DNA of 33,656 bases from Candidatus Omnitrophota bacterium (GTDB lineage: Bacteria; Omnitrophota; Omnitrophia; JAHJGZ01; JAFGJY01), in assembly GCA_016928875.1 (NCBI GenBank), contig JAFGJY010000114.1, positions 1-33,656 on the forward strand, read 5' to 3'. The translations under genes were made by a program, and so were the position numbers. This document shows positions 29,476 through 33,285 of this stretch, piece after piece; position 1 is the first letter of the stretch, and each line of letters begins with the position of its first letter. The notes beneath the pieces are model-generated. The model did no database searches, had not been told where the DNA came from, and was given only the letters and a program-made list of their open reading frames with translations.

Positions 29476-29880
29476 CTATTTTGTAACCCATGCACCGTTT
29501 TCAAGTTGGATATGCTCACCGGGTTGAGCTTTCGAACGCTGGACCTCGGCGAAAACTGCTTCGATAGTACCCAAAGCGCTTGTCAAACCATTTTGATCAG
29601 CAATAGCTTGGTAGATGAGTTTACGATCCTGGTTTTCAGCATTAATGATCGCGTGCGCCGTCTCATCAGATGTCACTACCTCAACATAGCCCGCCTTGTT
29701 CTCTCCTACAATACCTTGCGATTTGAGCGATTGCAGTTCATTAAATCTACCGCGTCGGGCATCAAGCGCCTGTTGTATGGCTGGAGTGATAGTTTTAAGG
29801 TCATACATGGCCGCGATAGCATGTGTGGTGAACGTTGCTAGTAGTATACCGCCAATAACGATCAATATTAATTTCTTCAT
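29476..29880 (-). CDS. ydbL: YdbL family (DUF1318) periplasmic protein
   Basis: 134 residues with a signal peptide (KLILIVIGGILLATFTTHAIAA). The DUF1318 pattern is clear: 'ITPAIQQALDARRGRFNELQSLKSQGIVGENKAGYVEV', then 'IINAENQDRKLIYQAIADQNGL' and the C-terminal 'AQPGEHIQLENGAWVTK'. In E. coli, YdbL is a periplasmic helper of the YdbH-YnbE bridge that joins inner and outer membrane. An AAGGAGG site precedes ATG 29880, 32 bases after the ynbE stop. Third and last gene of the operon. Confidence 0.9.
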   Translation of the reverse strand: MKKLILIVIGGILLATFTTHAIAAMYDLKTITPAIQQALDARRGRFNELQSLKSQGIVGENKAGYVEVVTSDETAHAIINAENQDRKLIYQAIADQNGLTSALGTIEAVFAEVQRSKAQPGEHIQLENGAWVTK

Positions 29881-29912
29881 TGGTGTTCCTCCTTACTATA
29901 TTTGATAACGAA

Positions 29913-30122
29913 TTACTGTTTAAATGGTTGCTCTGATTTGCCACTTACATAATCTTCGATGTTCGTAGCCGTATTCTGCATGCCCTTGACATCCACGGTA
30001 ATGTGGGCATTGATCGTGATCGGCCGGTTCGGATCACCAACCGCCTTTACCGTACAGCTTGTCATGCTGAATAAAACCACCGTAAGCATGCTCCACATTA
30101 AAACATCACATTTATGTATCAT
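29913..30122 (-). CDS. ynbE: YnbE-like outer membrane lipoprotein
   Basis: 69 residues from ATG 30122, which has an AAGGGGAG site; the track start at 30140 overlaps the ydbH stop and is less likely. The signal sequence ends in a lipobox-like MTSC. The short mature part carries the family pattern 'NRPITINAHITVDVKG', a single strand expected to add onto the edge of YdbH's beta-sheet groove. E. coli YnbE is a similarly small outer membrane lipoprotein. The C-terminal extension (MQNTATNIEDYVSGKSEQPFKQ) is longer than in the E. coli protein as I recall it. Confidence 0.85.
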   Translation of the reverse strand: MIHKCDVLMWSMLTVVLFSMTSCTVKAVGDPNRPITINAHITVDVKGMQNTATNIEDYVSGKSEQPFKQ

Positions 30123-30139
30123 ATAGCTCCCCTTTATCA

Positions 30140-31162
30140 TTATGATTGTTCTTGCTTGTTCATATCGGTCAGCGCCAGAAGGTTCATCAGCCCGCCTTCT
30201 ACGATAAGATCAAGCGTAAGATTAAGATCAAGATTGATGCGTTTGCTTGATAATTGTAACTCGATAGTCATTTTTTCACTATCAAAATTCGTTACTTTCA
30301 CGATCGTTTTATCCAGCTCTATCTTTCTTTGCTCTTTTATCAATAAGGCCAGCTCGTTACGCTCAGCGCTCTGCGGGATGTAGTTGATCAGGAATTGCAG
30401 TACTGCCGCATTGATCATGCTTCTTTTGGTCATTACCATGTCAGCTTGCATATCCGTAATAGCGCCCGCGGCTGCCTGCACAGTGATCGAAATATTTGCG
30501 ATCCCATCAACCTGTGAGACAAGGTCGGGCCGGTCATGCGCGATCTTCGAAATATCGATATCATCAAGAGTTAAAAACATTTCAATGTATCCGTTCTGGT
30601 CGGGTTTGCACAAGACCGTCGCGTTGACCGATCCCCCGTAAAACTGTGCTATGATGCTGGTTATCTGAATTTCATCCAACATGCCTGCAATATGCCCTGA
30701 TATCTCCGTAGCGGCAAGTTTCTGGGTTGTTACTGTCTTAATGCTAAGGTCGCCGTCTATTTCAAAGTCGTTCTTCGGCCGCCGGGTAAAGACACCATCA
30801 AACCCTACATCATCTATAACAAGCTCCATCCCTATGAAAGTTCCGTTTTGCGCATGTATTTTCACCGGATGTGTTGCGCCCAAAAGCGCATAGATCGACG
30901 AAACATTGAAATGCTTGAACGCGATCGCCATCTCCCCGGCCTTATCAGACAGTTTAATGATCATGTTATCAAACGTAAGTGAACCATCGATATTGAAACG
31001 TTGTTTCGTAAGCAAAAGCTCGGTTATGCGAATATCCTTGAGGAAGATATTAGCGATGGGCGGAACGATATTTTTAGTAACAGTTTTGGAATTAAGCGCC
31101 CAATAAAGGATGGCACTGATAGTAATGATCACAACGGGAAAGATGATTAGAAGTTTTCTCAT
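30140..31162 (-). CDS. ydbH: YdbH-like AsmA-superfamily protein, shortened form
   Basis: 340 residues. One N-terminal membrane helix (LLIIFPVVIITISAILYWAL) is followed by a largely beta-stranded periplasmic domain with 'FNVSSIYALLGATHPVKIHAQNGTF', 'LAATEISGHIAGMLDEIQITSIIAQFYGGSVNATVLC', and a C-terminal stretch 'AAVLQFLINYIPQSAERNELALL...SSKRINLDLNLTLDLIVEGGLMNLLALTD' of the kind that ends YdbH and other AsmA-like proteins. E. coli YdbH is about 880 residues, so this form would be a much shorter bridge. YdbH proteins are thought to carry phospholipid between the membranes. The order ydbH-ynbE-ydbL matches E. coli and supports the assignment, which would be weak from sequence alone. No Shine-Dalgarno site; the -10 box is six bases before the ATG. 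Confidence 0.78.
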   Translation of the reverse strand: MRKLLIIFPVVIITISAILYWALNSKTVTKNIVPPIANIFLKDIRITELLLTKQRFNIDGSLTFDNMIIKLSDKAGEMAIAFKHFNVSSIYALLGATHPVKIHAQNGTFIGMELVIDDVGFDGVFTRRPKNDFEIDGDLSIKTVTTQKLAATEISGHIAGMLDEIQITSIIAQFYGGSVNATVLCKPDQNGYIEMFLTLDDIDISKIAHDRPDLVSQVDGIANISITVQAAAGAITDMQADMVMTKRSMINAAVLQFLINYIPQSAERNELALLIKEQRKIELDKTIVKVTNFDSEKMTIELQLSSKRINLDLNLTLDLIVEGGLMNLLALTDMNKQEQS

Positions 31163-32436: not shown

Positions 32437-32658
32437 TGCCCGCCGAAGCACGCTTCAGAGGACTTCTATATCCAGCGAAGGTGGGAGATCAGTCTCCATA
32501 TCAATATCCACCCTGTCAAAGATGTTCCATAGTATCAAAAGATCTCCAGAAAAGTAAGACAATTACGAGAACTTGGTATGACCTTTAAAGCCATTGCAGA
32601 ATCGCTTGGAGTCGACACGAAAACAGTTATAAAAGCCTATCGGTTGAGCAAATATTAA
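32437..32658 (+). pseudogene. Degraded C-terminal fragment, probably of a site-specific recombinase
   Basis: Read in one plus-strand frame the segment gives 'EISLHINIHPVKDVP', an in-frame TAG at 32530, then 'YQKISRKVRQLRELGMTFKAIAESLG...KTVIKAYRLSKY' and a TAA at 32656. The last part is a typical helix-turn-helix ('QLRELGMTFKAIAESLGVDTKTV') of the kind that closes large serine recombinases. No start codon with a ribosome site and no catalytic domain are present, so this is a relic. Its position right next to copy A of the ssrA-end repeat fits an integrase left behind by an old insertion. The recombinase identity is from memory of the motif; a stand-alone HTH remnant is the alternative. Confidence 0.45.
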
Positions 32659-32948
32659 CTTGCCTTCAAAACGGCGACTTCAGATTGCAACTTTTTTCCA
32701 AGCTTATCAGCCTGGACCTCAAGATCGTAATGCGACTGCAAATTGAGCCAAAATTCAGCATTCATCTCAAAAAAGCGTCCTAACCTTAAAGCTGTATCTG
32801 CAGAAATCGATCTCTTCCCGTGAACGATTTCATTAATCCGTCTTGCAGGTACACTTATCGCTTGAGCCAGCTTGTATTGACTGATCTCCATAGGTTTCAG
32901 AAACTCTTCGAACAATATCTCGCCTGGATGTATCGATTTAATCTTCAT
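32655..32948 (-). CDS. higA: HigA-family antitoxin (HTH transcription repressor)
   Basis: 97 residues: 'IHPGEILFEEFLKPMEISQYKLAQAISVPARRINEIVHGKRSISADTALRLGRFFEMNAEFWLNLQSHYDLE' is the standard HigA/VapI Xre-type DNA-binding domain. It neutralises HigB by direct binding and represses the operon. An AGGAGG site precedes ATG 32948; it lies nine bases after the higB stop, in the toxin-first order usual for higBA. Its stop overlaps the end of the recombinase relic on the other strand by a few bases. Confidence 0.95.
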   Translation of the reverse strand: MKIKSIHPGEILFEEFLKPMEISQYKLAQAISVPARRINEIVHGKRSISADTALRLGRFFEMNAEFWLNLQSHYDLEVQADKLGKKLQSEVAVLKAS

Positions 32949-32957
32949 AGTAACCTC

Positions 32958-33239
32958 CTAATGATAATCTTCTATTTGTACATCATATGCATTTCCATTT
33001 TCCCATTTAAAACATAATCGCCATTGATCATTAACTCGAACGCTCCATGCTCCTTTACGATCTCCCGTAAGCGGCTTTAAACGATTTCCTGGCGGAACTC
33101 TCAAATCATTTACATCTACAGCAGCATGAAGCATTACAAGCTTCATTAACATAGTTCTCTTTACGTTAGCGGGGAATTTCTTTACAGTCTTTCTATTAAA
33201 GAGCTCTTTAGTATTTTTGCATTTAAATGTCTTTATCAT
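32958..33239 (-). CDS. higB: HigB-family toxin (RelE-like mRNA interferase)
   Basis: 93 residues from ATG 33239: 'MIKTFKCKNTKELFNRKTVKKFP', 'VMLHAAVDVNDLRVPPGNRLKPLTGDRKGAWSVRVNDQWRLCFKWENGNAYDVQIEDYH'. This is the compact RelE/ParE fold of HigB toxins, which cut mRNA on the ribosome; the conserved 'GAWSVRVNDQWRLCF' carries the usual basic and aromatic residues. The longer track start (GTG 33260) would begin between the -35 and -10 boxes and is rejected. The operator and promoter lie directly upstream, and there is no room for a 5' leader. Confidence 0.93.
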   Translation of the reverse strand: MIKTFKCKNTKELFNRKTVKKFPANVKRTMLMKLVMLHAAVDVNDLRVPPGNRLKPLTGDRKGAWSVRVNDQWRLCFKWENGNAYDVQIEDYH

Positions 33240-33245
33240 GCACAA

Positions 33246-33285
33246 ATAATAACACATCACGTTAATAACGTCAACCGTTATTAAC
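33246..33285 (-). promoter_or_regulatory. higBA promoter and palindromic operator
   Basis: Minus strand: TTGACG (33269-33274), 17-base spacer, TATTAT (33246-33251), then six bases to the higB ATG. A perfect inverted repeat GTTAATAACG / CGTTATTAAC with a five-base centre (33261-33285) covers the -35 box, and a third partial copy (AACGTTAT) lies just upstream. This is a textbook HigA autoregulation site. Confidence 0.8.

Follow-up and report, generated by a model that had tools for sequence, protein, structure and literature searches.

How phospholipids pass across the periplasm is a long-open question, in which short AsmA-like proteins are puzzling, since they seem too short to reach across that compartment. 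In E. coli, YnbE adds beta-strands to the C-terminus of YdbH, and YdbL prevents runaway multimerisation of YnbE; this YdbH-YnbE-YdbL system was reportedly described by Kumar, Davis and Ruiz in PNAS in 2024. In the window (the whole stretch of 33,656 nucleotides analysed here, a contig of a Candidatus Omnitrophota bacterium), three minus-strand open reading frames encode a YdbH-like protein of 340 aa, a YnbE-like protein of 69 aa and a YdbL-like protein of 134 aa. The question that this locus raises is whether so short a YdbH could take part in a lipid bridge and, if so, what would supply the distance.

The initial annotation had described three consecutive genes in E. coli order, and the open reading frames were found where it had placed them (Table 1). 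Both the order and the tight spacing are those of the E. coli K-12 ydbH-ynbE-ydbL locus, whose products measure 879, 61 and 108 aa, respectively. The longest ynbE reading frame (29913-30140, 75 aa) overlaps the ydbH stop codon in a TAATG, and the start at 30122 is preferred because a strong Shine-Dalgarno sequence lies just before that ATG. Of the 116 loci of the phylum in which YnbE was found (see below), 107 carry the YdbH gene upstream and on the same strand. As these genes, fused or not, occur together in locus after locus while the flanking genes vary, the grouping is not due to chance. A conserved wider operon was also considered and is ruled out, since no neighbour beyond the trio is conserved in the phylum loci. 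Promoter-like sites showed no excess over shuffled sequences, and a search for a terminator-like site found none. Elsewhere in the window, at 32655-33260 on the minus strand, what appears by eye to be a pair of HigA-like antitoxin and HigB/RelE-like toxin genes is encoded.

Table 1. Positions of the features of the three-gene locus within the window.
Feature	Position	Strand	Basis
ydbH-like gene; 340-aa AsmA/YdbH-family protein with one N-terminal membrane helix	30140..31162	-	ORF
Predicted inner-membrane anchor of YdbH, N-terminal hydrophobic helix, residues 4-24	31091..31153	-	sequence
YdbH C-terminal module, about residues 136-335, the last part of its boundary extrapolated from relatives	30158..30757	-	hhalign (weak) and relatives' PF11739 matches
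ynbE-like gene, 69-aa lipoprotein	29913..30122	-	YnbE profiles
Shine-Dalgarno-like AAAGGGGAG (AAGGGGAG) before the ynbE ATG at 30122	30127..30135	-	sequence
Predicted lipidated Cys of YnbE; lipobox MTS-C, +2 = T, no Asp	30054..30056	-	sequence
ydbL-like gene, 134-aa DUF1318 protein	29476..29880	-	PF07027, BLASTP, solved YdbL structure
Shine-Dalgarno AAGGAGG before ydbL	29888..29894	-	sequence

By homology, the identity of the DUF1318 protein as YdbL is certain. It scores 76.3 bits against PF07027 (DUF1318; cut-off 27, E = 2.8e-21), is 33% identical to E. coli YdbL by BLASTP (E = 5e-14), and matches the solved structure of E. coli YdbL (PDB 28oj_A, E = 2.4e-8), a protein that the entry labels as probably chaperone-like. 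It has a signal peptide, with a likely cleavage site predicted after residue 23, between AIA and A. Elsewhere in the phylum, the DUF1318 proteins of two loci (L051 and L073, genomes G034 and G082) themselves resemble lipoproteins (CREH...LHKT), and neither a YnbE strand nor a YdbH was found alongside them, possibly reflecting a different use of YdbL.

That the lipoprotein is a YnbE homologue is well supported by profile comparisons in both directions. The window protein, a short lipoprotein with the strand motif PxxPI[TK]I[ND], encoded between ydbH and ydbL, is matched at E = 1.5e-21 by a YnbE profile that includes it, and scores 76.6 bits against one built without it. Conversely, E. coli YnbE scores 26.0 bits against a profile of 116 phylum sequences built without E. 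coli, equivalent to E = 2e-6 for 4,300 proteins, the best of 2,000 shuffled sequences reaching 18.0. PF13617 (YnbE-like lipoprotein) is matched by E. coli YnbE at 3e-16 and by none of the eight phylum sequences scanned, namely the window YnbE and seven relatives; the window protein is thus a divergent homologue rather than a member of the Pfam family. Position +2 of the lipobox is never Asp in the 116 YnbE homologues.

The window YdbH, like the window YnbE, matches no Pfam or NCBIfam family, and its assignment to YdbH is supported through its relatives. A short-YdbH profile that includes the window protein matches it at E = 1.1e-72, and matches TamB in the PDB at E = 1.3e-7. Among 71 aligned relatives, 21 match PF11739 (YdbH) at E<0.1, the best at 3.6e-12 and several above the cut-off, and 24 have AsmA-type matches. 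When ten relatives were scanned one by one, their matches to PF11739 lay within positions 637-851 of the 893-position profile, that is, in its C-terminal quarter, and hhalign places the alignment at residues 651-761 of E. coli YdbH, as a weak match (probability 8.8%, E = 0.0038). The C-terminal module of the window protein would thus be roughly the counterpart of residues 640-850 or so of full-length YdbH. The full length of about 850-880 aa is not reached, and on the simplest reading of the alignments the protein consists of an inner-membrane anchor, a short N-terminal part and, immediately following, the C-terminal, YnbE-facing module, and lacks some 500 residues from the middle of its full-length counterpart. 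Single-sequence AlphaFold models were poor both for this protein (pLDDT 39.6) and for the fused protein of contig L001 discussed later (49.9). All three homologies proposed by the initial annotation were thus borne out, that of YdbH by way of the relatives.

The short YdbH is not a trait of this genome, since 280-424 aa is the typical range in the phylum. DUF1318 is present in 134 of 384 Omnitrophota genomes, and 119 further DUF1318 loci were sampled to give, with the window, 120. YnbE was found in 116 of these, nearly all of them with a recognisable YdbH gene alongside, and in more than 25 families the trio, where it occurs, has stayed complete and compact. The median length of YdbH is 337 aa where ynbE is separate and 370 aa where it is fused, the range given above being that of 99 filtered sequences. 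A search independent of DUF1318 recovered YdbH in 88 of 237 genomes, with reading frames from 135 aa (a fragment at a contig end) to 500 aa, plus one of 645 aa whose start is apparently extended, and none near 880 aa. YdbH accompanies DUF1318 in 87 of 91 carrier genomes, and a single genome has YdbH without DUF1318. Judged from these sequences, the short YdbH is the standard form of the phylum rather than peculiar to the genome studied here. At two loci, tandem YdbH-like genes precede a fused YnbE-YdbL gene (L152, 1646-3691, and L150, 2094-3700, in cassette orientation). The longest YdbH-like protein, of 470 aa (L065, 2236-3649, cassette orientation), seems to contain part of its module twice, which suggests that internal duplication can lengthen the groove.

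A lengthened YnbE as an offset for the short YdbH was also considered, and the length survey spoke against it. Where the two genes are separate (51 loci), the mature YnbE measures 40-56 aa; the median is 43 aa, compared with 45 in E. coli. YnbE tends to be slightly longer where YdbH is longer (rho 0.34), a correlation whose sign rules out a longer YnbE as compensation for a shorter YdbH. With YdbH much shorter than in E. coli and YnbE no longer, a bridge would call for additional YnbE copies or a narrower gap: if YdbH has to extend to the outer membrane, the distance is presumably supplied by copy number or a narrow periplasm.

We consider that the trio is probably a shortened YdbH-YnbE-YdbL envelope module that works as a variant of the E. 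coli lipid bridge, because the retained C-terminal module of YdbH, the YnbE strand motif and YdbL are the parts needed for the strand-addition step. An outer membrane is encoded in the same genome (BamA/Omp85, E = 1.6e-69; LptD, E = 1.2e-8). For the module itself we infer a groove, strand addition, stacking and lipid transport, as follows. YdbH would be held in the inner membrane by its one helix, keeping a short N-terminal beta-groove and the C-terminal module at which YnbE docks; lipidated YnbE in the outer membrane would add beta-strands to the YdbH C-terminus and stack on itself, extending the groove towards the outer membrane, with YdbL as a periplasmic chaperone that stops YnbE from polymerising prematurely. 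Lipids would then travel from one membrane to the other along this groove, in a bridge built with more YnbE copies than in E. coli or across a narrower gap. Joining of YnbE to the YdbH C-terminus by strand addition has been proposed (PMC12045153), and an interaction of YdbH with YnbE in E. coli is on record (PMC12977461).

The short AsmA-like protein might instead act locally at the inner membrane, loading or sorting lipids or lipoproteins as GspN does, with no bridging and with YnbE and YdbL as client and helper. GspN/PulN of type II secretion is indeed an AsmA-like beta-taco protein of the inner membrane linked to lipoproteins, and moves lipoprotein effectors (PMC12802150); one YdbH relative weakly matches a GspN model, and one matches T2SSN at E = 0.006. 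In P. aeruginosa, which has a YdbH of 855 aa (PA5307), the AsmA-like DUF748 protein PA2708 (361 aa) is similar in size to the window protein and is likewise judged not long enough to cross the periplasm by itself (PMC10900882). The company kept by these proteins differs, however. GspN is encoded with secretion genes and without YnbE or YdbL, and PA2708, reported as PF05359, has no known outer-membrane partner, whereas the window YdbH adjoins YnbE and YdbL, other neighbours not being conserved. Nor did the GspN models (T2SSN, PF01203) match the window YdbH, or the relatives' loci contain conserved secretion neighbours, and the scanned relatives match the YnbE-facing C-terminus of PF11739 far better than they do the GspN models. 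We therefore regard purely local action as unlikely.

Nor does it seem at all probable that the trio is a reduced or auxiliary system, in which a longer bridge carries the bulk lipid and the short YdbH modulates it. A candidate for such a bridge exists. The genome (1.73 Mb in 131 contigs, 78% complete) was searched for other AsmA-like proteins, which yielded two more, of 646 and 278 aa. The former, TamB/AsmA-like with a weak TamB match (L167, contig C28, 1750-5256), is encoded immediately ahead of mlaE and a gene for an mlaF-like ATPase, the contig ending inside the latter gene, and is possibly a long lipid bridge coupled to Mla; no TamB match in the genome exceeds the Pfam cut-off. The latter (L168, contig C20, 2820-3656, minus strand) is an AsmA/DUF748-like protein (PF05170, E = 1.6e-12) without YnbE or YdbL beside it. 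A second full-length ydbH beside another ynbE, which the initial annotation had named as evidence against its own reading, was looked for in this 78%-complete assembly, and neither a long ydbH, a second ynbE nor a second DUF1318 gene was found. An auxiliary role would also accord with the retention of DUF1318 in only about one-third of the phylum's genomes, from which the trio would be dispensable in many lineages. The trio's intactness and compactness across so many families is, however, unlike a decaying remnant, and since the three bridges of E. coli are redundant, dispensability is no argument against a bridge.

In 59 of the 116 loci, YnbE and YdbL form a single polypeptide of about 165-225 aa, which begins as a complete YnbE lipoprotein and ends in the DUF1318 domain. 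Every one of the 59 carries at the join an [A/V]-x-A site, a classic signal peptidase I motif, in the position that the signal-peptide cleavage site occupies in separate YdbL proteins. In a concatenated tree one change separates the fused from the separate forms: 55 fused rows constitute a clade with support 100, and the other four, from two further families, lie at the unresolved base of the tree, two of them (L046 and L096) having the start of a separate-type YdbL ('LKYTTPE' or 'YDLRYPTPE'). Given this clade and the four basal rows, one to three fusion events are possible; many independent fusions, which we also considered, are not supported, as the tree needs one change. At one locus (L115, genome G075), a fused-type protein has a degenerate YnbE strand motif and retains the A-x-A site and DUF1318.

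Cleavage of the fused precursor at the join is plausible from the motif, and we infer that the precursor would deliver lipoprotein and chaperone in a 1:1 ratio before being cut. Tentatively, and at rather less than an even chance, we propose that in one large lineage YnbE-YdbL is exported as a precursor and cut at A-x-A by signal peptidase I or an equivalent, that YdbL behaves like a pro-domain until its release, and that YnbE then makes up most of the bridge, with a short part contributed by YdbH. The fused protein may also never be cleaved, in which case YdbL would remain attached to YnbE at the outer membrane and serve as an integral cap that fixes the number of YnbE subunits, the A-x-A being a leftover of an old signal peptide; this is possible, somewhat short of probable, and compatible with the other explanations. 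A short hydrophobic stretch precedes the motif, and its 12-residue Kyte-Doolittle maxima, mostly 0-0.7, fall far below the values of about 2-3.4 seen in genuine YdbL signal peptides, as expected if no cleavage occurs. A leftover motif should nevertheless have drifted, and this one has not: despite an otherwise variable linker, position -1 is Ala in 59 of 59 fusions and position -3 is Ala in 53 and Val in six, while -2 varies among Tyr, Trp, His, Phe and Leu; +1 is mostly Gln, Glu or Asp. Contig L001 has IYA at its join.

Set against the E. coli system, the window locus has the components, order, tight overlap, lipoprotein signature and DUF1318 chaperone in common. It differs in its YdbH, of 340 rather than 879 aa and without most of the middle, the region of the E. 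coli gain-of-function sites at 303-308 and 456 (PMC8593681), and half of the phylum loci differ further in having YnbE and YdbL fused. The AsmA-like fold of TamB and YhdP is probably shared by the window YdbH. TamB and YhdP are proteins of about 1,260 aa, and the partner of TamB is TamA. Short AsmA-like proteins (PA2708, GspN) and the E. coli trio are already known; neither a short YdbH accompanied by YnbE and YdbL nor a YnbE-YdbL fusion was found described in the literature searched, coverage of which was incomplete, with key primary papers outside it.

As this family of short YdbH proteins keeps exactly the partner pair of E. coli, it offers a compact test case for the respective shares of YdbH and YnbE in a bridge. 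The existence of natural YnbE-YdbL fusions provides independent evidence, from evolution, that YdbL acts on YnbE, and their invariant join site gives a direct handle on co-delivery and processing.
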